Origin: an uncultured SAR116 cluster alpha proteobacterium
GTDB lineage: Bacteria > Pseudomonadota > Alphaproteobacteria > Puniceispirillales > Marisalimonadaceae
Length of the DNA: 64,000 bases
Direction: 5' to 3'
Assembly (NCBI GenBank): GCA_902537945.1
Contig: CACBDG010000001.1
Span: 215,899-279,898 of the forward strand
Below the pieces are notes generated by a model. It was not told where the DNA came from. It worked only from the letters and a program-made list of their open reading frames with translations, and made no database searches. The translations under genes were made by a program, and so were the position numbers. Below are positions 3,209-36,419 of this stretch, in pieces (position 1 is the first letter of the stretch; the number at the start of each line of letters is the position of its first letter).

Positions 3209-3749
3209 ATTGTAATATTACTTTATCAATTTCTTTTGTAATTTTATTCGAACTTGGCTGTGTTGTACTGGCAAACCATTTTACTAATAAACCTTCTTTA
3301 TTAATAAGATATTTATAGAAATTCCATTTTGGAAAAGCTAAAAATCCAGCTTCTTTTTTTATCCATTTAAAAAAGGGGTGTCCTTTCTCCCCTTTTATAT
3401 CAGTAATTTCAGTAAGCAAAAAAGAAACGTCAAAATTTATGGTACAAAATTCTTTGACCTTTTGATTTGATGATAACTCTTGATTTCCAAAATTATTAGA
3501 AGGTATACCAAGAACAATTAGTCCATCTTTCTTATATTTCTGATGAAGAGATTCTAAATCGCTGTATTGATAAGTAAAGCCGCAAAGCGAAGCTGTATTA
3601 ACAATGAAAATAGGTCTGCCTTTGAAATCATTCAAATTAATGTTTTTTCCATCTATTGAATTAAAACTAAATTGATAAACATCTGCTTCAACGTTAGAAG
3701 TCATTGATACACCTATAATTGTTATTATAAAGATTAAAATTTTATTCAT
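3207..3749 (-). CDS. Glutathione peroxidase family protein (secreted)
   Basis: Signal peptide, then NTASLCGFTYQYSDLESLHQKYKKDGLIVLGIPSNNFGNQE (GPx signature). Confidence 0.9.
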   Translation of the reverse strand: MNKILIFIITIIGVSMTSNVEADVYQFSFNSIDGKNINLNDFKGRPIFIVNTASLCGFTYQYSDLESLHQKYKKDGLIVLGIPSNNFGNQELSSNQKVKEFCTINFDVSFLLTEITDIKGEKGHPFFKWIKKEAGFLAFPKWNFYKYLINKEGLLVKWFASTTQPSSNKITKEIDKVILQ

Positions 3750-4857: not shown

Positions 4858-5064
4858 CTATTTATAAAATATTTTTAATATAATAAGAATAAAACCTTGA
4901 AATCAAATAGTAAAATAGTATATGGCTAATATATTAGAAAAAACTAATAATTTACATCATTTTTTTGATTTTTTTAATATAACTTTATTAATTATAATTA
5001 ACTTGAACTTTAATCAAAAATACTAAACATTAATTTACACGCATAATTAAATTTTGAGAATTTT

Positions 5065-6681: not shown

Positions 6682-6685
6682 TATT

Positions 6686-7816: not shown

Positions 7817-7846
7817 AAAAAACAATTTTAGATTTAGCTACATGAT

Positions 7847-10800
7847 ATGGATAACTTAATCAAATTTGCAATTAAACAGCCTATAGCCATTGTTGCAATG
7901 GTAATTTTAATTTTTGCTTTTGGTTTTATTTCTTTACAAAAAATACCAATACAAATGACACCTGATATAGATAAACCCATTTTACAAGTGAGAGTTTTAT
8001 GGCCCGGTGCATCACCAAAAGACGTAGAAAGGGAAGTAGTTACTAGAGTTGAATTAGCAGTTAGTTCACTTATAGGTGTTGAAAACGTTGAATCAGATAG
8101 TCGCTTTGGATCAGCAAAAGTAACACTTACATATTCTCTTGGCCAAGATATGGATGTAGCACTTGTTAAGCTTCTTAATAAAGTCTCCTCAATTGATGGT
8201 TTGCCCCTTGATGCAAAACGACCCACTGTTAGAACCTCTAATTCAGAGGATAGCCCAATCTCTTATCTAGCAATGATTAAATTACCAGAATCTAAAATAA
8301 AAGATTTATGGAGATTAGGTGACTTTGTTGAATATGAAATAATTGAAAAATTGTCTAAAATTGAAGGTATCTCAGAGATATCATCTCGTGGGGGACAAAG
8401 AAAAGAGTTAAAGGTTTCATTAGATATTCAAAAATTATCCAAATATTCAATTTCAATTCCAACAGTTTTGAATGCGTTAAAAGCTAGTTCTGCGCAAGTG
8501 ACTGTGGGTGAAATAATTGAAGGAAAAAGAACATATTCTGTAAGAGCAGAAGCTATATCATATACACCTTCAAGTGCTAAAAACATTATTTTGAGATCTG
8601 AGATTGGATCAGATGGCATTCCAGTAAACATTAGACTTAAAGATGTAGCAAAAATTTATATGTCTTACAAAAAACCAACTAGTTTCAGAAGAATGAATGG
8701 ACAAGATGCTATTACTTTTAGAGTTATTAGAGAAGCAAACTCAAATGTAGTAAAAATAATTGAAAATTTAAAAGCAGAAGTTGAAAAACTAAATAAAGGT
8801 ATTCTTGCAAAAAATGGACTTGACCTAAAAATTGTTTATGACGAAACCGTATATATTAATGCAGCTATTAAACTGGTTCAACAAAATATTATAATTGGTG
8901 GAATTTTGGCTGTTTGTATGTTGATGCTTTTCTTAAGAAATTTCAGGCCCACATTTATAATAATGTTGGCTATTCCTATTTCGATCATTGGAACCTTTGT
9001 AGTAATTTCGTGGTTAGGTCTATCTGTAAATGTTATTTCACTTGCTGGATTAGCATTTGTAGTAGGAATGGTTGTTGATGCTTCAATAGTAAGTCAAGAG
9101 AATATCTTTAGATTGAAACAGGCCGGGATGTCTTCCACTTTAGCATCTTACAATGGTTCAAGACAAGTTTGGGCTCCTATATTAGGATCAGCTCTTACTA
9201 CTGTTGTGGTGTTTATTCCAATTTTATTATTAAATTTACCAATTGGACAATTATTTAGAGATATTGGCATAGCAATCTCGGTATCAGTTTTAATTTCAGT
9301 ATTAATTTCTATAACATTAATACCTTCAGTTTCTGCAAGAATATTAAGTGATTCCTCTAAAAAACAATCTAAAAAATTTTCTATTAAATATATAGATAAT
9401 TTCGCAAGTAAATTTGCTTCAGTAATACTGAAATATGCTTCTTGGTCAACTAGCTCCATAAAAGCTGGTTTGGTAGTTGTTTTTGGATTAATAGTAACCT
9501 CTATAATAATAATAATATCTCTTCTTCCTCCACTTGATTACTTACCAGATGGTAATAGAAACTTTGTCTTTGCGCGTATATCAGTCCCACCAGGTTATAA
9601 TAAAGAAGCAACTCTTGAAATATCTAAAGCAATGGAAAGAGCAGCAAAACCACTTTGGGAAGCAGAAATCGACGACCCTAATGACAAACCAAAGATTGCA
9701 CGTTTCTTCTTCATAGCTTACTCTGGCGGGGCATTTGCAGGAGCTGCTGCTGAAAATCCACAAAGAGTGAGAGAAATTTTACCTGTATTGACAAAACCAA
9801 TTAGAACTCAACCAGGAGCAAGAGCTTTTGCTCAACAAGCTTCATTATTTGGAAGATCTGTTGGTGGATCAAGAGTGATAAAATTAGAAATTACAGGACC
9901 TTCTTTGGATTTGATTCAACCTATTGCACAGAAAATTTTAATCAATATTAAAAGTGAGTTTCCTCAAAAAAATGGACATCAAGTACGGGCAGTACCTCAA
10001 ATGGGAACAGGGTCTCCACAGGTTATAATAAGACCAATTACTGAAAGGTTAGCTGATGTTGGAATATCGGCTAGAGAGTTAGCGCAAACTTTGGATGTTT
10101 ATAATGATGGGATTAGGGTTATTGAGATACCTTTTGAAGGTAGGTTAATAGAACTAGTTTTAACCTCTAATAAGGCTGAGACAAATAAAATTGATGATCT
10201 AAAAAATTTACCTTTAATCCTTCAAACTGGTGAATTAGTAAGATTGTCGCAAGTTGCTGATATTAATTTGATTGGGGCTCCTGAACAGATTAAAAGATTA
10301 TTTGGAAAAAGAGTAATAACTCTACAACTTCGACCACATGAAAGTGTTTCTTTAGAAAATGCTGTTTTAAAATTACAAACTTTAGTCATTAAACCTTTAG
10401 TGAAAGAAATACCTAATAATATTTCAATTAATTTATCTGGTGCAGCTAGTGAATTAGAACGCACATGGATGTCAATGAAAAATAATGTAATGATTGCATT
10501 TGTTGTTATTTTTTTATTACTAACTGTTTTAATGAAATCGTTTATACTTCCTTTTGTTATAGTTATAACTGTTCCAATAGCTGGCGCAGGAGGAGTATTG
10601 GGGCTAGTAATTTTAAATCAATTTAGTGCTCAATCAATGGATATGCTAACTATGTTAGGTTTTATAATTTTAACTGGAATTGTTGTTAACAATTCTATTT
10701 TAATGGTAGAACAAACTCTTTGGCATTTAAGACACGAAACCAAGAAGATTTCTGATGCTATTACAGAGGCTACTAGGAATAGGATAAGACCGATCTTTAT

Positions 10801-11014
10801 GTCAACTTTAACAAGTCTGTTTGGATTGATACCGCTTGTAGTTTTCCCAGGTTCTGGATCAGAATTGTATAGAGGTATAGGTATAGTAGTTTTTGGCGGT
10901 TTATCTACTTCTGCTGTTTTAACTTTGCTTATGGTTCCACCATTACTGGCATTAGCATTGAAATTTGAAAAAATAAATCCAATGTCTCAAGTGAAGCAAG
11001 AAGAAATTTTATAA
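7847..11014 (+). CDS. RND efflux transporter permease subunit (AcrB/MexB-type)
   Basis: 1055 aa; starts MDNLIKFAIKQPIAIVAMVILIFAFG; RND motifs VVGMVVDASIV, LTGIVVNNSILMVEQ. Confidence 0.95.
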   Translation: MDNLIKFAIKQPIAIVAMVILIFAFGFISLQKIPIQMTPDIDKPILQVRVLWPGASPKDVEREVVTRVELAVSSLIGVENVESDSRFGSAKVTLTYSLGQDMDVALVKLLNKVSSIDGLPLDAKRPTVRTSNSEDSPISYLAMIKLPESKIKDLWRLGDFVEYEIIEKLSKIEGISEISSRGGQRKELKVSLDIQKLSKYSISIPTVLNALKASSAQVTVGEIIEGKRTYSVRAEAISYTPSSAKNIILRSEIGSDGIPVNIRLKDVAKIYMSYKKPTSFRRMNGQDAITFRVIREANSNVVKIIENLKAEVEKLNKGILAKNGLDLKIVYDETVYINAAIKLVQQNIIIGGILAVCMLMLFLRNFRPTFIIMLAIPISIIGTFVVISWLGLSVNVISLAGLAFVVGMVVDASIVSQENIFRLKQAGMSSTLASYNGSRQVWAPILGSALTTVVVFIPILLLNLPIGQLFRDIGIAISVSVLISVLISITLIPSVSARILSDSSKKQSKKFSIKYIDNFASKFASVILKYASWSTSSIKAGLVVVFGLIVTSIIIIISLLPPLDYLPDGNRNFVFARISVPPGYNKEATLEISKAMERAAKPLWEAEIDDPNDKPKIARFFFIAYSGGAFAGAAAENPQRVREILPVLTKPIRTQPGARAFAQQASLFGRSVGGSRVIKLEITGPSLDLIQPIAQKILINIKSEFPQKNGHQVRAVPQMGTGSPQVIIRPITERLADVGISARELAQTLDVYNDGIRVIEIPFEGRLIELVLTSNKAETNKIDDLKNLPLILQTGELVRLSQVADINLIGAPEQIKRLFGKRVITLQLRPHESVSLENAVLKLQTLVIKPLVKEIPNNISINLSGAASELERTWMSMKNNVMIAFVVIFLLLTVLMKSFILPFVIVITVPIAGAGGVLGLVILNQFSAQSMDMLTMLGFIILTGIVVNNSILMVEQTLWHLRHETKKISDAITEATRNRIRPIFMSTLTSLFGLIPLVVFPGSGSELYRGIGIVVFGGLSTSAVLTLLMVPPLLALALKFEKINPMSQVKQEEIL

Positions 11015-11121
11015 TTTAAATAAAATTTTCAAATCTTTGTTTTTTATTTAGTGACAAAAGACTTAATAAAAAGCTATATAAGCATCATTTTATAATATCG
11101 TTTAAAAATTGAAGATAAAAA

Positions 11122-12966
11122 ATGAAAAAAAATAATTCTGCTGAAGAAAAAATAAAATTAATTAGAAATATAGCAATAGTTGCACACGTGGATCATGGCA
11201 AAACAACTTTGGTTGATACTCTATTGCAACAATCAGGTACGTTTGCTGCGCATACAGAATTAGTTGAAAGAGTAATGGACTCAAATGATTTAGAAAAAGA
11301 ACGTGGTATTACTATTTTATCCAAAAACACAGGATTAAGATGGAAAGATTGGAGGATTAATATTGTAGATACCCCAGGACATGCAGACTTTGGAGGAGAG
11401 GTCGAAAGAGTGCTCTCAATGGTAGACTCCGTGTTATTATTAGTCGACGCTGTAGAGGGTCCTATGCCACAAACGAGTTTTGTAACTAAAAAGGCCCTCG
11501 AAGCAGGTCTTTGTCCTATAGTGGTAATAAATAAAATTGATAGAGACGGTGCTAGACCAGATTGGGTATTAAATCAAACATTTGATCTTTTTGATAAATT
11601 AGGCGCAGATGAAAATCAACTTGATTTTCCTATTGTTTACACTTCTGCAATTCAAGGTTGGGCAACTAATGATTTGATAGATAAAAAAAATAATATGGAT
11701 GTAATTTTTGATACAATTATAAATAACGTCCCTTACCCCAACGTAGATCCAAATGGAAATCTTCAAATACAAATATCTGCTTTGAGTTACTCTAATTATG
11801 TTGGTTTGATTGGAACTGGAAGAATTAGAAGAGGACAAATAAAAAAAGGTCAAAATGTTTCTGTTGGAGATGAAAATGGTAATATGCGCCAGGGAAAAAT
11901 TTTACAAATAATGAATTTTCATGGCTTAGAACAGAAAGAAGTTGATGAAGCTAATGCAGGAGACATAGTAGCAATAAGTGGCCTTGGTGACTTAAAAATT
12001 TCAGATACTATTTGTGAGATTGGAAAATTTGAAGCATTGGAAAAACTTTCAGTTGATGAGCCTACAATTAGTATGATGATACAAGTAAATGATAGTCCAT
12101 TTGCTGGCCAAGAAGGAAAATTAGTTACAAGTAGATCAATTCGTGAACGATTGCATCAAGAATTAAAAACCAATGTTGCTCTTAGAGTTGAAGACACAGA
12201 CAATCCAGATAAATTTAGAATTTCTGGTCGTGGTGAACTCCATTTATCAATTCTCATTGAAAATATGCGAAGAGAAGGTTTTGAATTGGGTGTTTCTTCT
12301 CCAGAGGTTATTACAAAAATTATAGACAACTTAAAAAGTGAACCATTTGAAAACTTAACCATCGACATAGAAGAAATTCATCAGGGCAAAATAATGGAAA
12401 AATTGGGTGAAAGAAAAGCCCAATTAATGGATATGGTACCTGACAGCAATGGAAGAGTGCGCATGGATTATAGCATTGCTAGTAGAGGCTTAATAGGTTT
12501 TAGAACAGAATTTTTGACGTTTACCTCAGGTTCAGGTCTTATGTATCATACTTTTGACAAGTATAGACCTATTATAGAAGGGTTAAAGACTGGAAGAAGA
12601 AATGGAGCTTTAATTTCAATTGGTCAAGGAAAAGCTCTTCCATATGCTTTATTTAATCTTCAAGAAAGAGGTAAAATGATAATAAAAAATGGTGTTGAAG
12701 TTTATGAGGGGATGATAATTGGTATACATAGCAGAAATAATGATCTTGTTGTAAATCCTCTCAAAGGTAAACAACTTACAAATGTTAGGGCTTCAGGTAG
12801 TGATGATGCTGTTTTATTAACAACTCCTATAAATGTTACCTTAGAATTTGCATTGCAATTTATTAACGAAGATGAGCTTATTGAAGTAACCCCAAGTAGT
12901 CTTAGGATTAGAAAGAAATTTTTAAAAGAACACGAGAGAAAAAAGGCTGCAAGGACTGCATCTTAG
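11122..12966 (+). CDS. typA: Translational GTPase TypA/BipA
   Basis: NIAIVAHVDHGKTTLVDTLLQQSGTF, ERGITI, DTPGHADFGGEVER, NKIDR. Confidence 0.97.
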   Translation: MKKNNSAEEKIKLIRNIAIVAHVDHGKTTLVDTLLQQSGTFAAHTELVERVMDSNDLEKERGITILSKNTGLRWKDWRINIVDTPGHADFGGEVERVLSMVDSVLLLVDAVEGPMPQTSFVTKKALEAGLCPIVVINKIDRDGARPDWVLNQTFDLFDKLGADENQLDFPIVYTSAIQGWATNDLIDKKNNMDVIFDTIINNVPYPNVDPNGNLQIQISALSYSNYVGLIGTGRIRRGQIKKGQNVSVGDENGNMRQGKILQIMNFHGLEQKEVDEANAGDIVAISGLGDLKISDTICEIGKFEALEKLSVDEPTISMMIQVNDSPFAGQEGKLVTSRSIRERLHQELKTNVALRVEDTDNPDKFRISGRGELHLSILIENMRREGFELGVSSPEVITKIIDNLKSEPFENLTIDIEEIHQGKIMEKLGERKAQLMDMVPDSNGRVRMDYSIASRGLIGFRTEFLTFTSGSGLMYHTFDKYRPIIEGLKTGRRNGALISIGQGKALPYALFNLQERGKMIIKNGVEVYEGMIIGIHSRNNDLVVNPLKGKQLTNVRASGSDDAVLLTTPINVTLEFALQFINEDELIEVTPSSLRIRKKFLKEHERKKAARTAS

Positions 12967-13577
12967 ATTAAAAGTTTGTTTTTGTTTACTAGCTCGTCTC
13001 TTGTGTCAATGTCAATAATTGTTCCAACACCAGTGTTAAAAGTAATTATATCTTTGTCTCTAATTAGTGACTTTGCACCAAAGTCATCTTTGAGGCTTTT
13101 TAAAGTGTTAAAATAAATTCTTGGAAGTATAACAGGATTACCAGTTCTTGAATTATGTTGAGGTATAATAACTTTTTCACAGTTGTATTCGAAAAACTTT
13201 TTTTGCAAATTAATTAGATCTATAGAAGTTATGTATGGCATATCTGCTGGTATAATCATTGCTCCTTTAATATCTGTTTCTAAATTTTTAATTGCTAATG
13301 AAATTGAAGTTCCAACACCTCTTTTATAGTTAACATTTTCTAAAATTTTAATTTTTTCATTATTAATTAAATTTTTAATTGTTTTTTGCTCATATCCTAC
13401 AACTATTATTAATTCTGAAGGGTCAAATATTTTTAATAATGTGTCTAAAATATTATTTATTATAGGTTTGCCATTTAAAATTACTGAAAGTTTATTTTTC
13501 TTTCCAAAACGGTTACTTCTACCAGCGGCTAGTAAAATTTTTTTAATTACTTGATTATCTTTTTTTTTATTTGTCAT
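12963..13577 (-). CDS. MobA-like NTP (molybdenum cofactor cytidylyl-) transferase
   Basis: LLAAGRSNRFGKKNKL nucleotidyltransferase signature; paired with xdhC-like gene. Stop overlaps typA stop (TTAG). Confidence 0.85.
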   Translation of the reverse strand: MTNKKKDNQVIKKILLAAGRSNRFGKKNKLSVILNGKPIINNILDTLLKIFDPSELIIVVGYEQKTIKNLINNEKIKILENVNYKRGVGTSISLAIKNLETDIKGAMIIPADMPYITSIDLINLQKKFFEYNCEKVIIPQHNSRTGNPVILPRIYFNTLKSLKDDFGAKSLIRDKDIITFNTGVGTIIDIDTRDELVNKNKLLI

Positions 13578-14520
13578 AATAAGATCGTCTATAATATATT
13601 ATCTCTGCTAATATTGATGTAGCAATCTCACAAGGTGTTTTTGCATTTATATTTAGGCCAACTGGGCCATGAATTTTGGCTAATTCATTTTGTTTGAAGC
13701 CTTTTTGAATTAATCTTTCACATCTTTTATGGTGTGTTTTTTTACTACCCAATGATCCTACGTATCCAAGATTCTTTTTTATACAATACATTAAGGCTAA
13801 GTCATCAATTTTAGGGTCATGAGTAAGAGTTACTAGATGTGAGGATTTGTCTAGATCAAAATTTAAGAGTGCTTCATCTGGCCACTCATTAATTATTTTA
13901 CAGTTTGGAAACCTATCTTTCGTTGCAAAATGTTCTCTGGGATCAATCAATATTATTTCATAATCGGCCACATTAGCTAATTTAACAAGTTCTTGGGCAA
14001 TATGTACAGCTCCAACAATAAATAATCTAGGTTTAGGGTCAATAATATGAATGAATTCATTCTTTGATTTATCAAAATAACTTATCTGTTTATCTATTGT
14101 GTTATCTATTTTCCTATTCCCAGTTGCACAATCAATTCTTAATTTAACAGTTTTTCTTTTTTCTATACTCTTTACTATTGAATAAACAATATTATCTTCC
14201 AGATCTAAAGGTTGGATAAGTACTTTTAGTTCACCACCACATGCTAATCCAACCTCCCAAGCCATATTATTTGAGATACCGTAATCTTTTATTATTGATT
14301 TACCGTTTTGAATAGAATTAATACCCTCAGAAATTACTGCTCCTTCAATGCAGCCACCAGAAACAGAACCTATTATCTCACCATTTTCATCAATTGCCAT
14401 TTGTCCACCTACAGGCCTTGGTGAGCTTCCCCATGTTGATATTACAGTAGCCAGGGCAATTCGTCTTTTTTGTTTCAACCAAATACTTGTAGGTGTAAGA
14501 ATGTCATCGACATTATTCAT
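13567..14520 (-). CDS. XdhC/CoxI family protein
   Basis: STWGSSPRPVGGQMAIDENGEIIGSVSGGCIEGAV, IIDPREHFATKDRFP, YVGSLGSKKTHHKR. Confidence 0.93.
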   Translation of the reverse strand: MNNVDDILTPTSIWLKQKRRIALATVISTWGSSPRPVGGQMAIDENGEIIGSVSGGCIEGAVISEGINSIQNGKSIIKDYGISNNMAWEVGLACGGELKVLIQPLDLEDNIVYSIVKSIEKRKTVKLRIDCATGNRKIDNTIDKQISYFDKSKNEFIHIIDPKPRLFIVGAVHIAQELVKLANVADYEIILIDPREHFATKDRFPNCKIINEWPDEALLNFDLDKSSHLVTLTHDPKIDDLALMYCIKKNLGYVGSLGSKKTHHKRCERLIQKGFKQNELAKIHGPVGLNINAKTPCEIATSILAEIIYYRRSYYDK

Positions 14521-25291: not shown

Positions 25292-25376
25292 GGGGATATG
25301 GTGAAATAGGTAAACACGCTGGTCTCAAAAACCAGTGCCGCAAGGCTTCCCGGTTCGATTCCGGGTATCCCTACCA
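25292..25376 (+). tRNA. tRNA-Leu (anticodon CAA)
   Basis: Acceptor GGGGATA/TATCCCT, anticodon arm CTGGT-CTCAAAA-ACCAG (anticodon CAA), long variable arm GTGCCGCAAGGCTT, T-arm CCCGG-TTCGATT-CCGGG, encoded CCA. Confidence 0.95.
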
Positions 25377-25411
25377 AACTTCACAAATTTATGTAGGTAA
25401 GGATTTTAGAA
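25326..25411 (+). repeat. Proximal attachment-site-like repeat (tRNA 3' half plus about 35 nt downstream)
   Basis: Pairs without gaps with 29715-29800 at a constant offset of 4389 nt. First 51 nt match 48/51; next 35 nt about 22/35 by eye. Confidence 0.85.
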
Positions 25412-25451
25412 GATTATTCGTGATTTCGAATTCAACCAACATTCTTAAAAT

Positions 25452-26825
25452 TTAACTTTTAGAAAACGCTAACTCTTCTGATCGCGCTCGGTGCCATAGC
25501 GCAGCGGCTGCAGTTTCTGCAGCTTCTAGAACAGCCGATTTGTCCACTCGCAGTGGCTCTCCACCAGAAACAACTACTTCCCCTTCCACAATGACTGTAT
25601 CTACGTCTCGACCCTGTCCTGTGTGTACAAGTGTTCCCAATACGTTTGTAAGCGGTCTCAAATGTGGGCGCCTAAAGTCAAACATTACTAAATCAGCGCG
25701 TTTACCAACTGTTAAAGAACCAACCTCGTCTTCCAGACCAAGCGCCCGCGCACCTCCAATTGTAGCAGCCTCAAATACATTGGCAGGTTGCCAATCGTTA
25801 GTAATTTTACCATCTTGTAAACGACCCGAAGCTAAAGCCCATCTCATCAATTCCACCATATCAGCATGCATGTTGTCGGTTGAAAGTGTCAAATTCATAC
25901 CCGCGCGACGCAGAGCACTGGTCGGCGCCACATGACCGTGTGTTTGATTGCCCTTAGCTATATGAGCCAGATGTGCGCCTGCGCGTCCAAGACGCTCTAT
26001 ATCTGTTTTCGAGACGTGTATACAATGCGCACCAATTAAACGATCATCTAGAAGTCCGACATCTTCCAATAATTCAGGTGGACTCATCTTGTCACGTTCT
26101 CGAATGAAGTCAACCTCAACTTGACTTTGTGAAACATGAGTATTGATCCGCAACCCTTTGTCATCGCGCATATTACGTACTTGTCGCAATAGATCTGGCG
26201 AACAAGTGTCTGGCGCGTGAGGTGCTAGGACCACCCCAGTGCGTAGACTAATTGGATCGTGGTTTTCTTCAATCAGCTCCGAGGCTTCCCTGAGAGTCTG
26301 CTCTCCTATTTCTGTGTTATAGGTCCACTCACCGAGATGTACGCGTGTAAAATCAACATCGTGGATTCTTCCACAGCCCCATGCTCTGATCCCCGTTTCA
26401 GCCATCGCTGGAAGTGCAATATTCTGGTGTGTAAAGCTATCGTTTATTATCGTTGATCCGAAGAGGAGTGCTTCTAAACCGCCCAGCTGAGCCATAGCAT
26501 ATGCTTCTTCTGGGTTTGGATCATGTCCATGAGGCACACCAATGGTATAAGCCGGCGCAAACCCCATGTCTTCTGCCACTCCGCGAACCATACTAAGGAT
26601 AGCATGGGTGTGGACGTTAACGAACCCAGGTGTAATGACAAACCCCTTCGCATCAATTACTTTTGTTGCCGGGTTAATCCTGTCCGGCTTTTCGTCTTGA
26701 ATTGACTGTATTCGGCCGTTATCGATAACTACCCAACCTTCTTGGACGTAAGGTTTACTGGGATCTGAGGTAAGCAGAGTGCCACCTGCTACGATCATAT
26801 CTGGTATTGCAAGAGCCTCACTCAT
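25452..26825 (-). CDS. Amidohydrolase family protein (metallo-dependent hydrolase, TRZ/ATZ/SsnA-like deaminase)
   Basis: [20 protein letters not shown] (HxH), [31 protein letters not shown]. Confidence 0.9.
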
Positions 26826-27564
26826 GGGTTAAATGCCTAAGAAACCGCTGTGCACCAGGCGATTTTGGTTTTCTGAACAGAATTTCTGGTGGACCCTCCT
26901 CAGCAATCCTTCCATTCTCCATATAAATTACGCGGTCTGCAACTTCACGCGCGAAATTCATTTCATGGGTAACTACTACCATAGTCATACCTCCGTTTGC
27001 TAATTCTTTCATTACATCTAGTACCTCTTGAACCAATTCAGGATCCAGAGCCGAAGTTGGTTCATCAAACAGCATAACTCTAGGCTTCATTGCTAGTGCT
27101 CGTGCTATTGCTACTCTTTGCTGTTGCCCGCCAGATAGTTGTACTGGACGCTTCATTGCGTGATCAGACATATGAACCCGTTTAAGTTCAGCTCCAGCGA
27201 GAGCTCTTGCATCCGACTTAGACATCCCACGAACCTTTTCAGGCCCGATAGCTACATTATCGAGGGCAGAAAAATGCGGAAATAGATTGAACCTTTGGAA
27301 AACAAAGCCAAATTGACTGCGTTGGTCTGCGATTTGTTTTTCAGAACCACTATTCACCACTGGGTTTCCATCTAACCGTACAATACCAGCGCTAGGCTCT
27401 TCCAACCTATTCAGGCAGCGTAGAAAGGTGGTCTTACCTGAACCAGAGGCTCCAATTATTACAACAGTTTCACCAGTAGCTACATCCATAGATACACTAC
27501 GTAACACAGAATTATCCCCAAAGCTTTTGTTAAGGTCTTGCACCTGGATTACCGGAGTTACCAT
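26818..27564 (-). CDS. Polar amino acid-type ABC transporter ATP-binding protein
   Basis: [20 protein letters not shown] Walker [20 protein letters not shown] signature, [16 protein letters not shown] Walker B. Confidence 0.96.
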
Positions 27565-28211
27565 GTTGGAAGCCTCTGTTCAAGTCGACCCGACAACCAG
27601 CTTAATACTTTAATAAGAACATAATAATACAGCGCCAGCAGAGTATAAATCTCAAATGGCACAAAGTGCACTGAGATTATCGCCTGACCTGCTCTTGTTA
27701 GTTCATAAACTGATATTACTGAGAGCAAAGATGAATTTTTTACTAAGCTTATTAGCTCGTTTGTAAGTGGCGGAACCATTTGTCTATAAGCTTGTGGAAG
27801 TAAAATATATACAAGGATTTGTCTATGTCGCATGCCTACGGCAGTGGCTGCTTCGGATTGGCCCCGCTCAATAGACCCAACGCCACCACGCACAACTTCT
27901 GCTACGAATGCTGCAGAGTTCAAAGAAAGTGCAACTACACCGGCCCAAAATTCATCAAATCGAATACCAAGCGCAGGGAGTGCAAAAAAAACTAGAAAAA
28001 TTTGAATCAGCAACGGTGTACCGCGTATAAAATCAACATAACCTGCAACAATCCAACGAAGGGGCCTGCTATGCGACAGTGAGCACAAACCTAAAGCTAC
28101 ACCGAGCGCCAAACCTAAGACAGATGCTAGCGCTGAGACTTGCAACGTTACCACTACACCATGACCAAGGAGTGGCATGCTTTTTAATATAATGCCCCAA
28201 TCAATAGTCAT
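27558..28211 (-). CDS. Polar amino acid-type ABC transporter permease (HisM/GlnP-like)
   Basis: [67 protein letters not shown]. Confidence 0.96.
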
Positions 28212-28227
28212 ATAAACACCTTTTCAA

Positions 28228-28258
28228 CCTTGTCCCCTAAGCTATTAAAGGGACAAGG
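28228..28258 (-). other. Intercistronic RNA hairpin between binding-protein and permease genes
   Basis: Perfect 9-bp inverted repeat CCTTGTCCC / GGGACAAGG with 13-nt loop, 64 nt from neither start nor stop but within the 28211-28275 gap. Confidence 0.6.
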
Positions 28259-28274
28259 TAAGTTAAACTAGTAA

Positions 28275-29129
28275 TCACGCAAACGACGGAATTGTGTCGG
28301 ACAGTTCCATTTTGAACCCAAACCACTTTTCTTGCAACTCGTAAATCTCTCCGCTATCTTTCAGCCTTGTCAGTTCAGCATCCATCCAATTGACAATTTC
28401 TGTATCTTCTTTACGCGCCGCTATCCCTGCCCAATTCAACTTTCCGACTGGGCGTACCAATGCGTATGCACCTGGACGGTCCTTCATCACTTTTCCTAAT
28501 GTTGGCAGAGTGTTAAGCACACCATCAACTGTTCCTTGACTGAGCGCAAGGTAAGCAGAAGGATGATCATCATAAATTTTTACGTCAGAAAATCCAGTTC
28601 CTTTGGCGGCTACGATTTCTTTTTCAAGAGCTGGCTTCATCATTTCACCAGGTGATCCAAGTTTAACTCCAAGTACTTTCCCAGAAAGATCCTTCACTGA
28701 CATAATTTTTGATGCATCATCTGCTCGAATAAGCATAGCTTGGCTTGCTTCAGCATACGGAATAGAAAAAGCAACTTTTTCTAAACGCTCTTTACGGTAA
28801 CTCATAGACGACATAATCACATCGAACCTTCCAGCGTAGAGCGCTGGAATTACACCTGACCATTGCGTGTCAATAAATTCTGGCTTAACTCCCAATGAAG
28901 AACACATCAAAGCTGCTAAGTCCACATCATAGCCCACTATCTTACCTGCGTCCCGAAAAGTAAAAGGCGGATACGTTGCTTCACATCCTATTTGCAATAC
29001 TCCCGACGCTTTCACATCAGACAAAGTTTTACTCCCTGCTCGAGCTAAACTAGGTGTCAACATTGATACTGCCAAACCCGAGGCAGCAGTTACTAAAACT
29101 TGACGACGTGTAAATTTAGTTGTTTTCAT
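28275..29129 (-). CDS. Amino-acid-type ABC transporter substrate-binding protein
   Basis: Tat-like N-terminus MKTTKFTRRQVLVTAASGLAVS; GCEATYPPFTFRDAGKIVGYDVDLA (SBP family 3). ORF track extends to 29204, but ATG at 29129 fits the signal peptide. Confidence 0.93.
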   Translation of the reverse strand: MKTTKFTRRQVLVTAASGLAVSMLTPSLARAGSKTLSDVKASGVLQIGCEATYPPFTFRDAGKIVGYDVDLAALMCSSLGVKPEFIDTQWSGVIPALYAGRFDVIMSSMSYRKERLEKVAFSIPYAEASQAMLIRADDASKIMSVKDLSGKVLGVKLGSPGEMMKPALEKEIVAAKGTGFSDVKIYDDHPSAYLALSQGTVDGVLNTLPTLGKVMKDRPGAYALVRPVGKLNWAGIAARKEDTEIVNWMDAELTRLKDSGEIYELQEKWFGFKMELSDTIPSFA

Positions 29130-29714
29130 ATTACTACATACTCCTATATTTGCTTTTTCATTAAATAATTGTCGGAAGGTATTGTTTTGAGTTATATAGT
29201 ACAATTTTTATCCGGCTTTTTTGTACTGAAAACACGGGGTGCTAAAAAATTAAGCTAAATCAGCAATCATTTTAATCAATGTTTAATAAAACAGCATAAA
29301 TCGAATTTACTTATATATCGAAAATACAAACTCAATTTAAGCATTTTAGTACAATCACTTTACAACTTGAATCTCAAAACTTATTGGATATTTGAAATCC
29401 TCTTAATGTTAAATCTAGTTGTGTCATTCGTATATTGACACCTATTTATCAACAAAATGACGTGACAGTCCAATGTGAATAAAGCAATTAAATAGAAAAT
29501 TTAAAGTAATTATCAATATCGCTAAAGCTATAATGATGAGTGCCGTCAAGTTATTCTCCATAACTGTTTAATAAGTGTGACGATAAATGATACAAAAATC
29601 AAATAAACTGGCTTGACTGTGTTTACAATACAGAATAACAATTGACCTATAATTGTGGGAATACCTAGAATTACTTGACTATATTGGTTATACATAAGTT
29701 GTAATCAGGTAACC

Positions 29715-29765
29715 CAAAAACCAGTGCCGAAAGGCTTCCCGGTTTGATTCTGGGTATCCCTACCA
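29715..29765 (+). pseudogene. Partial tRNA-Leu 3' end (distal att-like repeat)
   Basis: CAAAAACCAGTGCCGAAAGGCTTCCCGGTTTGATTCTGGGTATCCCTACCA matches 25326-25376 at 48/51. T-loop C is lost and the T-stem carries a GU pair; the 5' half does not align convincingly. Confidence 0.9.
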
Positions 29766-29799
29766 CAATTCCTAATTAAGTGTAGGCAGAAATTTTAAA

Positions 29800-30264
29800 A
29801 TGGAACTTAATGATGAGGTCAAAATACCAGCAAAATTAGAATACGTTTACAATTGTTTGAACGATCTTGAAGTTTTACAAAAATGTATTCCAGGATGCGA
29901 AGAATTATTAGAAGATACAGATGGTTCTTTGTCAGCTAGGGTAGTTTTAAAAATTGGACCAATAAAAGCAAATTTTAAAGGGAAAATTGTGTTAGATTTA
30001 TCAAATGGCCCTGAAAAGTATTCGCTAAATGGTGAAGGGGATGGTGGCATGGCAGGTTTTGCAAAAGGAGGTGCTGATGTCGAACTAATTGCAGATGGTA
30101 ATGAGACAATTTTAAAATACGTTGCTAAGAGTTCTGTAACAGGTAAGATTGCTCAACTTGGAAGTCGCTTAATTTTAAACACAGCTAAAAAATTATCTAA
30201 AACTTTTTTTGAAAATTTCAGAGAATATATCCACAATGAAAAAAATGAAAATGTTCAAGTATAA
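29800..30264 (+). CDS. CoxG/SRPBCC family protein (carbon monoxide dehydrogenase subunit G-like), copy 1
   Basis: MELNDEVKIPAKLEYVYNCLNDLEVLQKCIPGCEEL... CoxG-like pattern. Confidence 0.87.
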   Translation: MELNDEVKIPAKLEYVYNCLNDLEVLQKCIPGCEELLEDTDGSLSARVVLKIGPIKANFKGKIVLDLSNGPEKYSLNGEGDGGMAGFAKGGADVELIADGNETILKYVAKSSVTGKIAQLGSRLILNTAKKLSKTFFENFREYIHNEKNENVQV

Positions 30265-30488
30265 CTAATTGTAATTATTGTTTTCAATGTTAGATCTATA
30301 CAATCAATAAATTCTTAAAATCTTAATAACACTTAGCTTGATATTTTGTAAGTTAATGTGCTAAAGAATTTTACAATAATTAGGTAATTGATCTACATTT
30401 AAGCTATGTAAAATAAGTCTTAATTGTTTACATGTGTGATTAAATTTTTAAACCCTAATATAAGGATTTCAAAAAGAGAAGTAAATCT

Positions 30489-30941
30489 ATGGAATTGAAT
30501 GACGAAATAAGAATCCCTGCAAAATTAGATTTTGTTTATAAATCTTTAAATGACTTACATATATTGCAGACTTGTATTCCTGGGTGCGAAGAATTAATAG
30601 AAGGTCAAGATGGCACATTGAGTGCTAAAGTTATTTTAAAAATTGGCCCTATAAAAGCTGGCTTTAAAGGTAAAATAAACTTAGATCTTTCAAAAGGTCC
30701 TTCAAGATACTCGCTAACTGGTCAAGGTGATGGAGGTGTGGCAGGCTCAGCTTCTGGCGGTGCTGATGTTGAGTTGATAGAAGATGGTAATGAAACAATT
30801 TTGAAATATGTCGCTACAAGTAATGTTAAAGGAAAAATTGCTCAATTGGGTAGTAGATTGGTTTTGAGCACTGCTAAAAAGCTTTCAAGAGCATTTTTTG
30901 AAAATTTTAAGAATTATGTTACAGAAGAACAAAAAAATTAG
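30489..30941 (+). CDS. CoxG/SRPBCC family protein, copy 2
   Basis: Aligns end to end without gaps to copy 1 over about 145 aa, with most residues identical. Confidence 0.87.
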   Translation: MELNDEIRIPAKLDFVYKSLNDLHILQTCIPGCEELIEGQDGTLSAKVILKIGPIKAGFKGKINLDLSKGPSRYSLTGQGDGGVAGSASGGADVELIEDGNETILKYVATSNVKGKIAQLGSRLVLSTAKKLSRAFFENFKNYVTEEQKN

Positions 30942-30959
30942 ATAAATATAAAAATTTCA

Positions 30960-31499
30960 TTGTTGATAAACCTTAAAATGGATCATCACTTAAAACTTCC
31001 AATATCATCTAATCAACTATTAAAACAATTAGATGATTGGAAAATCATTTATAAACACTTTACCCATAAACCATTGATTTCAGTGAATGAATCTAAATTA
31101 ATTCAAGAAAAACTTTTTGGTAATAATAAAGAAAATGGTCATATAAAGAATCTTTATCTAAGAGATAAAAAGAAAAAAAATATATTATTTGTAGCTCATC
31201 AAGATGCAGTTATCGACTTAAAGCTACTTGCAGAAAAAATGAACATGGGTCGTTTAAGTTTTGGTTCTAAAGAAAGATTAATGGAAAATTTAGGTGTATT
31301 ACCAGGAGCTGTCTCTCCATTCGCCATGATTAATGGAGTTAAAAATAACGTTACTATTTTTTTAGACACAAAGCTTAAATCTTATAAAAGGATTTTTGCA
31401 CATCCACTGGAAAATAATCAAACTCTTGAAATAAAATTTGATCAACTTGAAAAATTTTTTAAGAAAATATTTGTGACAACTTATTGGATTGATTTATAG
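30960..31499 (+). CDS. Prolyl-tRNA deacylase / YbaK-EbsC domain protein
   Basis: LFVAHQDAVIDLKLLAEKMNMGRLSFGSKERLMENLGVLPGAVSPFAMING. Confidence 0.9.
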   Translation: MLINLKMDHHLKLPISSNQLLKQLDDWKIIYKHFTHKPLISVNESKLIQEKLFGNNKENGHIKNLYLRDKKKKNILFVAHQDAVIDLKLLAEKMNMGRLSFGSKERLMENLGVLPGAVSPFAMINGVKNNVTIFLDTKLKSYKRIFAHPLENNQTLEIKFDQLEKFFKKIFVTTYWIDL

Positions 31500-31569
31500 A
31501 TATAGTTTTATTGATTTTGAATCATAACTTTATTTATTAATTATCCCAAAAATATATTATAGTAAAACA

Positions 31570-31944
31570 ATGTTCTATAAATTAATAAAAATGTATTTTA
31601 AGTTCATTATTTTTATTATTTTTGTATTTAATTTAACAGTAAGTTCTTGTTACGCGAAAGATAATTCTCTGTTGTTGATGATAACTGATAAGACATGTTT
31701 AATTTGTATGGTATGGGAAAAGCAAATAGGTAAAATATATCCCAAAACTGAAATTGCTAATAAATTTCCTCTTTCAAGAATTGAAATGAAAGATTTTGTG
31801 AATTACTCTAAACATAAAATAAAAAAAACAAATATAACCCCAACATTTATTTTTATAAAAAATAATAATGAGCAGGGTCGATTTGAAGGATACACAAGTC
31901 CTGAAATGTTTTGGTGGCAAGTTGACGAAATAATTGGTGACTAA
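31570..31944 (+). CDS. Thioredoxin-fold SoxS/SoxW-like protein
   Basis: Signal peptide; CLICMVW redox-like motif; TPTFIFIK; immediately upstream of soxYZ. Confidence 0.7.
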   Translation: MFYKLIKMYFKFIIFIIFVFNLTVSSCYAKDNSLLLMITDKTCLICMVWEKQIGKIYPKTEIANKFPLSRIEMKDFVNYSKHKIKKTNITPTFIFIKNNNEQGRFEGYTSPEMFWWQVDEIIGD

Positions 31945-31980
31945 TATAATATAATAAGTAATTATTAAACTATTAATTTT

Positions 31981-32454
31981 TTGGAGATTTCTATGAAACG
32001 TCAAAAAATGATTATGATTTCAAGAAGAAATATTATGTATCTATTAGGCGGGGTTGCAAGTACTGCATTATTTTCAAATTATGCATTAGCTAAACCCAAC
32101 TTAGCTCTTAAAAGAATCAAAGAAATAAGTAAAAACAATGTTGAAGAAATTGATTTATTTTTAGATGTTCCTGAAATTGCTGAAAATGGAAATCAAGTAA
32201 AAGTTAGCTTTGATATTGATAGTCCTATGACTAATGATGATTTTGTTAAAACAGTTTATTTATTAGCAGATGGTAATCCAGCTCCTAATGTAGCAAAATT
32301 TTCTTTTAGCACAGATATGGGAGCATGCTCAGCAACAACTAGAATGAGATTATCTAAAACACAAAATGTTTATCTTTTAGCAGAATATAATAATGGTAAA
32401 TTTGCCATGACAAAATCAAAAGTAAAAGTAACAATTGGTGGTTGTGGCGGTTAG
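31981..32454 (+). CDS. soxY: Thiosulfate oxidation carrier protein SoxY
   Basis: RR-containing signal peptide; C-terminal VKVTIGGCGG carrier motif. Confidence 0.95.
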   Translation: MEISMKRQKMIMISRRNIMYLLGGVASTALFSNYALAKPNLALKRIKEISKNNVEEIDLFLDVPEIAENGNQVKVSFDIDSPMTNDDFVKTVYLLADGNPAPNVAKFSFSTDMGACSATTRMRLSKTQNVYLLAEYNNGKFAMTKSKVKVTIGGCGG

Positions 32455-32469
32455 AAGGAGAGATACGTT

Positions 32470-32796
32470 ATGTCTAAAATTAAACCAAGAGGAAAAGTAC
32501 CAAAAAAAGCCTCTGTTGATGAAATAATAGAGATAAAAACACTTATTAGGCATCCAATGCATAGTGGACGTATGAAAGATAAAAATGGTAAAAACATCCC
32601 AAAACGTATAATTAACAAATTTTTAGTCAAGTTTAATGGCAAACAGGTTTTTGTGATGAATTTAGAACCTTCCATATCAACAAATCCATATATTGCATTC
32701 CCTTATAAGGCAAAAGAAACAGGAACTTTTGACTTCGAGTGGACTGATGATAATGGTGAGAAATATACAATGTCCAGAAAAATGACAGTATCCTAA
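32470..32796 (+). CDS. soxZ: Thiosulfate oxidation carrier complex protein SoxZ
   Basis: IKTLIRHPMHSGRMKDKNGKNIPKRIINKF; directly after soxY. Confidence 0.95.
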   Translation: MSKIKPRGKVPKKASVDEIIEIKTLIRHPMHSGRMKDKNGKNIPKRIINKFLVKFNGKQVFVMNLEPSISTNPYIAFPYKAKETGTFDFEWTDDNGEKYTMSRKMTVS

Positions 32797-32809
32797 ATAA
32801 GGTTTTACA

Positions 32810-34087
32810 TTGAAAAAAAACAAAAAGAAAAAAATAAAGATAAATCGCAGAGAATTGCTTGCAGGTACTGCCTCATTCGGTGCTATCGCTCTTACAACAA
32901 AGGTAGTTAATTCTCAAGAAGCAAACCCCAATAATTTACCACCTAATGTTCCGGAGTGGACTGCTGAATTAGGAGCTGGGGTTGACGCTAATCCTTATGG
33001 AATGCCATCTGAATTTGAAAAAAATGTTATTCGAAGAAATGTAGAATGGTTAACAGCTAGTACTGAGTCCTCTGTTAATTTTACTCCTATACAAGATTTA
33101 GAAGGAATTATAACACCTAATGGTTTATGTTTTGAAAGACATCATGGTGGAGTATCTATAATAAACCCTAAAGATTATCGACTAATGATTAATGGTTTGG
33201 TTGATAGAGAAATGATCTTCACATTAGATGATTTGAAAAGATTTCCACAAACTAATAAATTTTATTTTTTAGAATGTGCTGCTAATGGAGGCATGGAATG
33301 GAAAGGATCACAACTTAATGGTTGTCAATATACTTTTGGTATGGTCCATAATGTCCAATATACTGGAGTAAAATTATCAGATTTAATTCTTGAAACTGGT
33401 CTAAAACCCAAAGCTAAGTGGGTCCTTGCAGAAGGTAGCGATTCATCAGGTATGACAAGGTCAATTCCTATTGAAAAAATTCTTGATGACTGCATGATTG
33501 CGTGGGCCATGAATGGTGAGGCATTAAGATCTGAACAGGGATATCCTGCTAGGTTAGTTGTTCCAGGTTGGGAAGGAAATATGTGGGTAAAGTGGTTAAG
33601 AAGGCTAGAATTTGGCGATATGCCTTATATGACAAGAGAAGAGACTTCAAAATACACAGATTTACTACCTGACGGAAAAGCAAGAATGTTCACTTGGGTT
33701 ATGGATGCTAAATCTGTAGTTACCTCTCCAAGTCCAGAAAAGGCAATTTTTAAAAAAGGAGTTCATCAATTAAGGGGGCTTGCATGGTCTGGCAGAGGTA
33801 AGATCAAAAGGGTTGATGTTTCTTTAGATGGTGGAAAAAACTGGGAAACTGCAAAATTACATGATCCTGTATTGAGTAAAAGCTTAGCCCGATTTACCTT
33901 ACCATTTGAGTGGAATGGTCAAGAGCTTTTGGTTCAATCAAGAGCTATTGACGAAACAAATTATGTACAACCAACTATTCAAGAACTTCAAAAATTGAGA
34001 GGTGTTAATTCAATTTATCATAATAATTCCATTGCAACTTGGAAAGTTAACAAAGATGGAACAGTAGACAATGTTCGACTTGGTTAG
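32810..34087 (+). CDS. soxC: Sulfite dehydrogenase SoxC (molybdopterin oxidoreductase)
   Basis: TPNGLCFERHHGG, FLECAANGGMEWKG, GYPARLVVPGWEGNMWVKWL. Confidence 0.95.
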   Translation: MKKNKKKKIKINRRELLAGTASFGAIALTTKVVNSQEANPNNLPPNVPEWTAELGAGVDANPYGMPSEFEKNVIRRNVEWLTASTESSVNFTPIQDLEGIITPNGLCFERHHGGVSIINPKDYRLMINGLVDREMIFTLDDLKRFPQTNKFYFLECAANGGMEWKGSQLNGCQYTFGMVHNVQYTGVKLSDLILETGLKPKAKWVLAEGSDSSGMTRSIPIEKILDDCMIAWAMNGEALRSEQGYPARLVVPGWEGNMWVKWLRRLEFGDMPYMTREETSKYTDLLPDGKARMFTWVMDAKSVVTSPSPEKAIFKKGVHQLRGLAWSGRGKIKRVDVSLDGGKNWETAKLHDPVLSKSLARFTLPFEWNGQELLVQSRAIDETNYVQPTIQELQKLRGVNSIYHNNSIATWKVNKDGTVDNVRLG

Positions 34088-34715
34088 AAAACTAACAATA
34101 TTTTTTATAATGATAGCTATACCTATAATCCTTCATGCTAGTGAAAGAAAATTTAATTTAGGTAAAATTGCAACTAAAACTGAAATCGCTGGGTGGGATA
34201 TCGATGTTAGACCTGACGGAGTGGGTGCACCAATAGGTAGCGGTAATGCAATAGACGGTGAAGAAATATATGCAGAACAATGCGCATCTTGTCATGGAGA
34301 TTTTGGCGAAGGTCTTGATAGATGGCCAGAATTAGTTGGTGGCGAAGACAGTTTAGATACTCATGATCCAGTAAAAACAACCGGAAGTTATTGGCCATAC
34401 GCATCAACTATGTATGATTATATATATCGCGCAATGCCTTTTGGTGTAGCTCAATCATTAACACACGATGAAACATATAGTGTCGTTGCTTATCTTTTAA
34501 ATATGAACGAGATAATTGAAGAAGATTTTGTATTGAATGATAAAAATATTGGCAAGATAAAGATGCCAAATGTAGAAGGTTTTCTTTTACCAGATCCAAG
34601 ACCAGATATTTCAAACTTAAATGGTAAACCATGTATGAAAAATTGTGTTTCGCCAACTAAAATTATTGGAAAAGCCCGTGATATAGACGTAACACCTGAG
34701 GACGAAAAATCGTAA
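34071..34715 (+). CDS. soxD: Cytochrome c SoxD-like (short, one CxxCH)
   Basis: EEIYAEQCASCHGDFGEGLDRWPELVGG; overlaps soxC; C-terminal CMKNC-containing tail. Confidence 0.85.
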   Translation: MFDLVRKLTIFFIMIAIPIILHASERKFNLGKIATKTEIAGWDIDVRPDGVGAPIGSGNAIDGEEIYAEQCASCHGDFGEGLDRWPELVGGEDSLDTHDPVKTTGSYWPYASTMYDYIYRAMPFGVAQSLTHDETYSVVAYLLNMNEIIEEDFVLNDKNIGKIKMPNVEGFLLPDPRPDISNLNGKPCMKNCVSPTKIIGKARDIDVTPEDEKS

Positions 34716-34730
34716 ACAAAGGGAAAGTTC

Positions 34731-36419
34731 ATGCGTTCTAGACGTGAATTTATTCAACTGGCATCTATTTCAGCTATGTTGCTGGCAACCAAACCTTGGA
34801 ACTCTATTGCCGCAAAACAAAATTTAAAAATTGAAGATCTTTTGGAGTTTGACACAAAAGGTCAAGTTACACTATTACATTTAACAGATTTACATGGTCA
34901 GTTAAAACCTGTTTACTTTAGACCACCATCAGAAAATTTTGGAGTAGGAAAATACGAGGGTATACCTCCACACTTAGTTGGAAAGGCATTCTTGAAACAT
35001 TTTGGTATCTCGCCAAAAACACCACTCGCATACGCTCATACTATGGTTGATTATATTCCATTGGCCATGGAATATGGTAAATTAGGAGGTCTAGACCATA
35101 CCTCTACATTAATAAATAAAATTCGTGCTGACAGAGGTGATGATAAGGTTTTACTTTTGGATGGTGGCGATACTTGGCAAGGTTCTTACACTTCACTAAA
35201 AACTCAAGGTGAAGACATGGTTGAACTTATGAAAGCAATAGGAACCGAAGCAATGGTTGGTCATTGGGAATTTACTCTTGGTAAAGAAAGAGTTAAAGAA
35301 TTAATACAAAAGATGGAATATCCATTTTTAGGAGGAAATGTATTTGACACTGAATGGGATGAACCAGTATTTGAAAGTACAGCTTTTTTTGAAAAAGGTG
35401 GAGTGAATATTGCCGTTATAGGTCAACATTTTCCATATACCCCTATTGCGAATCCAAGTTATCTAGTTAAAGGATGGTCTTTTGGAATTAGGCCAGAGGT
35501 TATACAAAAAAATGTTAATAAAGCACGAAAAAGAGGTGCAGAAATAGTTGTGCTTCTATCCCATAACGGATTCGATGTAGATCAAAAGTTAGCAACAATG
35601 ATAGAGGGTATAGACGTGATTTTAACTGGTCATACACATGACGCTATACCTAAAGCAATAAGAATAAATGGAACTATTCTTTTATCATCTGGTTCGCATG
35701 GTAAATATTTAGGTAGAATAGATTTAAAGGTCAATAATGGTAAAGTTATAGAAACATCTTCAAATTTAATTCCAATTTTTTCAGATGTAATTCCACCAGA
35801 TCCAGAGATTTCAAATTTAATAAATAAAGTAAGAGGTCCTTTTGAACAGGAGTGCAATCGCATTGTTGGTGAAACAGAAACACTTTTATATAGAAGAGGT
35901 AATTTTAATGGGAGTTGGGATGACATTATTTGTGACTCTATTATTCAAGAGAGGGATGCAGAAATATCTTTAAGTCCTGGATTTAGATGGGGAACTACAA
36001 TTTTACCAGGACAAAAAATTACAATTGATGATATTTATTCACAAACTGCAATGAACTATCCTGAAGTTTATAGAGTAGAAATGTCTGGGAAAATGATAAA
36101 AGAAATTCTTGAAGATGTTTGTGACAATATTTTTAATCCTGATCCTTTTTTTCAACAAGGAGGAGATATGGTTCGAGTTGGAGGAATTAAGTACACTTGT
36201 AGTCCAAAAAATGAAATGGGAAAAAGAATAAGTAACTTAAGAATAGCTTCTACAGATCAACCTCTAGAGGCTAGTAAAAAATACATAGTAGGTGGCTGGG
36301 GATCAGTTAATCCAGATGTCAATGGGCCACCTATATATTCACTTTTAGAAAAATATATATCAGAAAAAAAAGTTATAAATTCAAAAAAATCTGAAATTGT
36401 TGAAGTTCTTGGAATGTAA
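34731..36419 (+). CDS. soxB: Thiosulfohydrolase SoxB
   Basis: LLHLTDLHGQLKPVYFRPPSENFGVG, GGDTWQGSYTSL, GHWEFTLG, LTGHTHDA. Confidence 0.96.
   Translation: MRSRREFIQLASISAMLLATKPWNSIAAKQNLKIEDLLEFDTKGQVTLLHLTDLHGQLKPVYFRPPSENFGVGKYEGIPPHLVGKAFLKHFGISPKTPLAYAHTMVDYIPLAMEYGKLGGLDHTSTLINKIRADRGDDKVLLLDGGDTWQGSYTSLKTQGEDMVELMKAIGTEAMVGHWEFTLGKERVKELIQKMEYPFLGGNVFDTEWDEPVFESTAFFEKGGVNIAVIGQHFPYTPIANPSYLVKGWSFGIRPEVIQKNVNKARKRGAEIVVLLSHNGFDVDQKLATMIEGIDVILTGHTHDAIPKAIRINGTILLSSGSHGKYLGRIDLKVNNGKVIETSSNLIPIFSDVIPPDPEISNLINKVRGPFEQECNRIVGETETLLYRRGNFNGSWDDIICDSIIQERDAEISLSPGFRWGTTILPGQKITIDDIYSQTAMNYPEVYRVEMSGKMIKEILEDVCDNIFNPDPFFQQGGDMVRVGGIKYTCSPKNEMGKRISNLRIASTDQPLEASKKYIVGGWGSVNPDVNGPPIYSLLEKYISEKKVINSKKSEIVEVLGM

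Follow-up and report, generated by a model that had tools for sequence, protein, structure and literature searches.

Gene cassettes of integrons are stackable units of cargo, each with a recombination site, that are mobilized by a tyrosine recombinase encoded elsewhere. The ssrA islands of Dehalococcoides are arranged in tandem behind a single RNA gene and have direct copies of the 3' end of this gene at their borders, with conserved bases adjoining the repeat. Their cargo is adaptive; some carry an integrase next to attL, about half have none, and old islands are thought to have been deleted or ameliorated at the far end (PMC3146451). By definition, CIMEs are ICEs or IMEs that have decayed; they have kept attL and attR, contain no genes for integration or transfer, and are found in tandem with integrase-bearing elements (PMC5704250). 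Tycheposons, as they are described in an article on Methylophilaceae (PMC10872708), are elements of marine streamlined bacteria, 4 kb and up in size, with a tRNA border, a tyrosine recombinase and cargo for nutrient use.

We analyzed a 64,000-nt stretch of DNA (the window) from an uncultured SAR116 cluster alphaproteobacterium (contig CACBDG010000001.1, positions 215,899 to 279,898), in which a 4.4-kb element lies behind a tRNA-Leu(CAA) gene. Our reading is that this element is a cargo-only member of a family of integrase-targeted elements at tRNA-Leu(CAA), and that the short spacer in front of the coxG gene on its far side is probably the scar of an older element; we would assign this model as a whole a probability of roughly 0.75. 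An initial annotation, made from the window sequence alone, had described the repeats at the two ends of the element. That annotation did not include the cassette family and its horizontal transfer, nor the integrase of sister elements or the presence of coxMSLDEF between the tRNA and coxG in other genomes. A literature search found no paper on the SAR116 tRNA-Leu cassette site.

The SAR116 cassettes resemble the ssrA islands of Dehalococcoides in their tandem units, their repeats of an RNA 3' end, the many members without integration genes and the decay at the far end. The Dehalococcoides islands differ in that they use tmRNA, a T-loop crossover and serine recombinases, while the SAR116 cassettes use tRNA-Leu(CAA), a tyrosine integrase and, putatively, an anticodon-loop crossover; the two also occur in different phyla and have different cargo. 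The window element is a CIME-like, integrase-less, tRNA-targeted cassette. It appears to have retained attL and attR, it has no integration or transfer genes, and units of its family are found in tandem with integrase-bearing elements. Unlike CIMEs, the SAR116 cassettes seem made to carry cargo and do not have the look of decayed elements, and no conjugation genes were found among the annotated family members, though integrase-bearing members exist. As far as tycheposons of Prochlorococcus are characterized in that article, the window element shares with them the setting in a streamlined marine bacterium, cargo of the nutrient-use kind, the tRNA border and, with 4.4 kb at tRNA-Leu, a size of at least 4 kb; but it has no tyrosine recombinase, which is present in sister elements of two genomes (G024 and G017), and for this reason we did not class it as a tycheposon. 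Finally, the SAR116 cassettes are like integron cassettes in being stackable cargo with a recombination site on which, in our reconstruction, an outside tyrosine recombinase would act, but their site is a duplicated tRNA 3' end and not a folded attC. The SAR116 integrase scored 27.6 bits against the integron integrase model, for which the cut-off is 265, and the locus is not classed as an integron.

Boundaries of the element and the empty site

A repeat search of the window identified an 86-nt direct repeat (25326-25411 and 29715-29800) with an offset of 4389 nt and 81% identity between the copies. The first copy begins inside the sole tRNA called in the window by ARAGORN, an intact tRNA-Leu(CAA) on the plus strand (25292-25376), and the same tRNA precedes a variable region in more than 20 genomes of the genus. 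The distal copy was not called as a tRNA by ARAGORN. Identity between the two begins at base 1 of the 7-nt anticodon loop, which reads CTCAAAA in the tRNA and CCCAAAA in the distal copy. Counted from this base to the CCA, the left att core occupies 25324-25376 and the right att core (attR) 29713-29765, both on the plus strand, and the right core agrees with the tRNA at 49 of 53 positions. These 4 differences and the loss of the T-loop C (TTCGATTCC to TTTGATTCT) support the view of the initial annotation that the distal copy is a decaying 3' end of tRNA-Leu. The intact gene would be the integration target, rebuilt at the left junction (attL). Since the right end of the element and the 5' half of the tRNA differ before the loop and agree from CTCAAAA onward, we infer that the crossover took place in the anticodon loop.

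The homology had also been described as running past the CCA at the same offset of 4389 up to the start of coxG. We found that 25377-25411 and 29766-29800 are indeed identical at 22 of 35 positions without gaps, with the TGTAGG and ATTTTA blocks in register. The coxG ATG does start at 29800; the end of the alignment had to be refined, as the last aligned base is the A of this ATG and the spacer proper is 34 nt long (29766-29799).

The initial annotation had further proposed that the tRNA lay about 35 nt upstream of coxG until an island was inserted between them, and had suggested a comparison of the region upstream of coxG in relatives free of the island. In three genomes of the genus (G014, G019 and G051) coxG adjoins an intact tRNA-Leu(CAA), which ends 33 nt upstream of the gene, so that both the insertion and the approximate distance were borne out. 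The genes before the tRNA, which for convenience we call moaA, estA, HNH, coq7, dsbB and yqaA, are kept in the same order in these three genomes. Since the empty-site relatives have the same left-flank gene order, coxG in the window most likely lay directly behind the tRNA before the insertion. The stretch 25324-29765 is a 4.4-kb element integrated in tRNA-Leu(CAA) with displacement of coxG, as the empty-site relatives confirm. With an intact tRNA at one end, a displaced 3' copy at the other and relatives in which the site is empty, it qualifies as a genomic island.

Cargo of the element and its transfer between species

Between the repeats there are only four cargo genes, all on the minus strand. 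The first codes for a 457-aa amidohydrolase of the TRZ/ATZ-deaminase type (25452-26825), which matched Pfam Amidohydro_1 (2.9e-49) and no NCBIfam model over its cut-off. Next to it lie the genes for a 248-aa GlnQ-like ABC transporter ATPase (26818-27564; Pfam ABC_tran, best NCBIfam model GlnQ, below cut-off), a 217-aa polar amino acid ABC permease (27558-28211; Pfam BPD_transp_1, TIGR01726 over cut-off) and a family 3 solute-binding protein (Pfam SBP_bac_3, 6.9e-40). The open reading frame of the last is listed as 28275-29204, and its real start is likely to be at 29129 because orthologues in several loci begin about 25 aa further in. From these assignments, the cargo genes look like a set for the uptake and breakdown of a nitrogen compound. 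The GC content of the cargo was 45%, as compared to 31% for the window, and the closest amidohydrolases outside SAR116 were from Rhodobacteraceae (up to 83%).

The same four-gene cargo was present in nine other genomes of the genus, at tRNA-Leu or in an array behind it. In six of these (G017, G023, G003, G012, G022 and G021) most genes were 95-98% identical to those of the window at the amino acid level; the others were G052, G002 and G006. The pS of the cargo relative to the window was 0.09-0.21, while that of the left-flank genes was 0.17-0.46 in window-like genomes and 0.62-0.71 in G022. In G023, G003, G012 and G052 the cargo was closer to that of the window than the genes on both of its sides, and in G022 it was closer by a wide margin than either the left-flank genes or coxG. 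Since the pS of the cargo is below that of the left flank, these comparisons indicate that the cargo moved horizontally between species.

The right flank gave a different picture for one pair. In a comparison of 29800-31499 with locus L031 of G017, the pS was 0.08 for coxG and 0.04 for p4, as against 0.17-0.44 for the left-flank genes. Because coxG and p4 are nearly identical to those of G017 despite the diverged left flank, a recent exchange of the right flank by recombination is probable, and for this pair a homologous exchange of the whole region would be as good an explanation of the shared cargo. The low pS in the right flank, and the failure to find an integrase in G000, would also fit a broader alternative in which the elements spread by homologous recombination between conserved flanks, no active integrase is involved and the repeats are left over from an insertion long past. 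We consider this improbable as a general explanation, since the cargo of the five genomes compared above is closer to that of the window than are their flanking genes, the same termini are kept by cassettes with different cargo, and several att cores of the family are intact at 53 of 53 positions.

A family of cassettes with common termini

We searched 40 genomes of the genus with a junction query composed of the right end of the element, the tRNA 3' part and the left end. Matches were obtained in 31 of the 40 genomes, some of them to the tRNA alone. The element has a conserved right terminus of about 138 nt on the plus strand (29575-29712), which was 75-91% identical to the right ends of cassettes with other cargo. 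In most pairs the alignments, counted backward from the CCA, covered about 175-220 nt. The homology stops about 138 nt beyond the att core and continues past this point only where the cargo is the same. When a 131-nt piece of the right terminus was used in the search (E <= 0.001), it matched in 19 of the 40 genomes at places corresponding to known right ends, and it had no match in the three empty-site genomes (G014, G019 and G051) or in G007, G010, G013, G042, G048 and G055. The left terminus that the cassettes have in common is shorter, about 30-45 nt. In the window it lies at 25377-25421 on the plus strand (AACTTCACAAATTTATGTAGGTAAGGATTTTAGAAGATTATTCGT); it is found in cassettes with different cargo, is strongest over the first 30 nt and is conserved to about +45. 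Judged by these alignments, a family of cassettes resides at tRNA-Leu(CAA) in which unrelated cargoes are combined with a common right terminus, tRNA 3' part and left terminus.

Arrays of two or three elements were detected in G017, G003, G021, G041, G006 and G024. The cargo of other units included an amidase with a branched-chain-type transporter, hydantoinase A and B, a Bmp-type binding protein, TPR/methyltransferase proteins, McrBC and helicases. By annotation, several cassettes have sets of enzymes, with or without a transporter, that look suited to the use of organic nitrogen. One cassette of G003 (L036, 5530-9355) encodes proteins of 744 and 459 aa, neither of which has a Pfam match.

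The right terminus of the window element contains a 24-nt imperfect direct repeat on the plus strand (29612-29635 and 29674-29697), with the second copy 62 nt from the first and 19 of 24 positions alike in the family consensus. Our guess is that these repeats are candidate arm sites for an integrase.

The integrase and the proposed mechanism of insertion

No integrase gene was found in the element of the window, and there was no Phage_integrase match at this locus in G000. A 370-aa tyrosine integrase (Phage_integrase, 6.8e-25) is encoded directly inside the left end of an element in G024 (L109) and in G017 (L116), with the gene pointing toward the tRNA in both. The integrase is truncated in G006 and reduced to a fragment in G041, and in these two genomes integrase-bearing remnants and integrase-less units stand side by side in one array. 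The copies in G024 and G017 are the only intact ones among the 40 genus genomes, which are incomplete, so that absence counts for little; the rest of the 40, including the 75% complete G000, gave no integrase at E <= 1e-20.

The integrase-bearing element of G024 (L109, oriented 3377-13779) is 10.4 kb long, carries McrBC restriction genes and is a candidate helper. Its other products include an AAA protein and a helix-turn-helix protein whose matches, of the replication type, are weak. A phage helper was not indicated, as neither the integrase nor the junction was found in the viral contigs searched and phage records gave only integrases less than 60% identical.

An element without an integrase needs either the integrase of a relative or homologous recombination in order to move, and we infer that the integrase-less element was mobilized in trans. 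In the proposed mechanism, the tyrosine integrase of the larger family members would recombine the tRNA gene, within its 7-nt anticodon loop, with the element site, which would consist of the right terminus, the tRNA 3' part and the left terminus. The tRNA would keep its own 5' half and gain a new 3' part from the element, and would thereby stay intact. The old tRNA 3' end, together with the downstream DNA, would be moved to the far (right) side of the element, before coxG. A cargo-only element such as the one in the window could be moved in this way by the integrase of a relative, or by homologous recombination.

Origin of the spacer upstream of coxG

The initial annotation had read the similarity beyond the CCA as ordinary chromosomal flank that predated the insertion, and had left room for its being no better than that of shuffled AT-rich sequence. 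Dinucleotide shuffles of the 35-nt stretches gave a mean of 11.3 identities (sd 2.65), so that the observed 22 had a P of 1.5e-4, and a score of 22 against either copy was reached at fewer than 1 in 12,000 positions of the window. We also built a profile from the 35 nt after the CCA of 24 element left ends and scored chromosomal post-CCA sequences against it with one gap allowed. An ungapped profile misses G014, G019 and G051, where the spacer is one base shorter, and one gap restores the match. The 34-nt spacer of the window (plus strand) was found to resemble the left terminus with a z of 4.8 (P <= 0.00033). The profile fitted all 11 coxG-adjacent sites in the clade of the window (P <= 0.0013), although these sites are related by descent and are not 11 independent tests. 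It also fitted both sites before gltB (G007 and G024) and none of the 8 sites before a cox operon (P >= 0.24). It was not matched in G055 and G046, where coxG lies 22-23 nt behind the tRNA or an att copy.

A chance resemblance, which the AT-rich composition of both stretches might suggest, was rejected on the basis of the shuffles and of the profile, though the genomes behind the latter are related and not independent, and we give it practically no weight. Nor is it at all probable that the similarity reflects a common function, such as processing of the tRNA trailer or ribosome binding, instead of common descent. An AGGTAG or AGGCAG about 10-13 nt upstream of the coxG ATG could serve as a ribosome-binding site, but the trailers at tRNA-Leu sites before cox operons are quite different, and the left end of the element itself has no gene start, its cargo being on the opposite strand. 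The reading as ordinary old flank was corrected as well, since the stretch matches the left terminus of the cassettes and is missing before cox operons. The coxG spacer is probably an element remnant, or else the arm of the element was derived from such a site.

As a remnant, the spacer would go back to an older element that once stood behind the tRNA and was deleted up to the start of coxG, with its left end remaining. In the arrays, what follows a displaced tRNA end is always a left end, namely that of the next older element. We lean toward this reading of the spacer as a scar, on the evidence of 34 nt for which the reverse direction is also conceivable. In that reverse direction, the spacer would be original chromosome and the family would have captured its left terminus there by imprecise excision. 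The homology would then be explained with no extra insertion and deletion, the spacer is present in the three empty-site genomes, and the left ends of cassettes from the window clade have ATGTAGGTAG in common with it. Such a capture is nevertheless rather unlikely, given that the left end of the element is conserved to about +45, past the end of the similarity to the coxG side, that the same element-like sequence occurs before gltB in G007 and G024, and that the tRNA-coxG sites of G055 and G046 have no element-like sequence.

In G007 (L117) and G024 (L109), gltB and its neighbors come directly after tRNA-Leu, with an element-like left end in between; in G024 they follow an array. The gltB group is possibly old cargo that is now fixed.

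A wider proposal, which we hold only tentatively, is that the tRNA-Leu gene of SAR116 serves as a platform for the exchange of metabolic cassettes. These small recombinase-less units, for which the right terminus of about 138 nt, the tRNA 3' part and the short left terminus would be the sole defining features, would be moved by an integrase that rarer sister elements encode. The locus would in that case work like an integron without attC, and every old cassette would leave a left-end scar that could turn into the leader of a following core gene, coxG being an example. In SAR116, a marine group of high abundance, the site shows nutrient genes being gained and lost as small units that pass between species. 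Empty, single and stacked states occur at the locus, some with an integrase and some without one, and it lends itself to direct tests of movement in trans, of how att copies age and decay and of what displacement does to the gene. The putative scar is also a warning that a site which looks 'empty' behind a tRNA may itself bear the trace of an older insertion.

coxG, the cox operon and transcription

The displaced coxG (copy 1; 29800-30264, plus strand) encodes 154 aa and matched Pfam COXG at 2.6e-26, with 92.5 bits against a cut-off of 22.2. Copy 2 (30489-30941, plus strand; 150 aa, COXG 1.1e-25) is a tandem paralogue with 72% nucleotide identity to copy 1. The tandem duplication was seen in the window, G017 and G019, and the other relatives have a single copy. 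The dN/dS of the displaced coxG relative to other genomes was about 0.04-0.17, indicating purifying selection, and on this ground the gene is presumably still expressed.

In G013, G022, G042, G021 and others, coxM, S, L, D, E and F lie between tRNA-Leu and coxG. Genomes that have the coxG spacer, among them the 99% complete G014, lack a CoxL of the coxMSLDEF type. In the outgroup, coxG genes are solitary and CoxL is at most 40% identical; in the tree of the left-flank genes few branches are supported and the outgroup is very distant.

Cotranscription of coxG with tRNA-Leu, and separation of the gene from its promoter by the island, had been suggested as possibilities in the initial annotation. 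We found no intrinsic terminator or significant hairpin in the tRNA-coxG spacer of the empty site, which makes read-through from the tRNA into coxG, and thus cotranscription, plausible in the empty sites. On the plus strand of the window, a search for terminator-like sites gave none. A promoter-like TTGACC-18-TAGAAT directed toward coxG (29642-29671, plus strand; 10 of 12 matching) lies inside the right terminus, and an equivalent match of 9-10 of 12 occurs at the same position in 9 of 22 right ends. It is a weak candidate only, as a scan of the region gave 12 promoter-like sites against 7.8 +/- 3.0 expected from shuffles, which is hardly above expectation.

Downstream of coxG, a YbaK-like gene is followed by a sox-like (sulfur oxidation) cluster (30960-36419), and the order of the YbaK-like gene and the gene next to it is kept in relatives.
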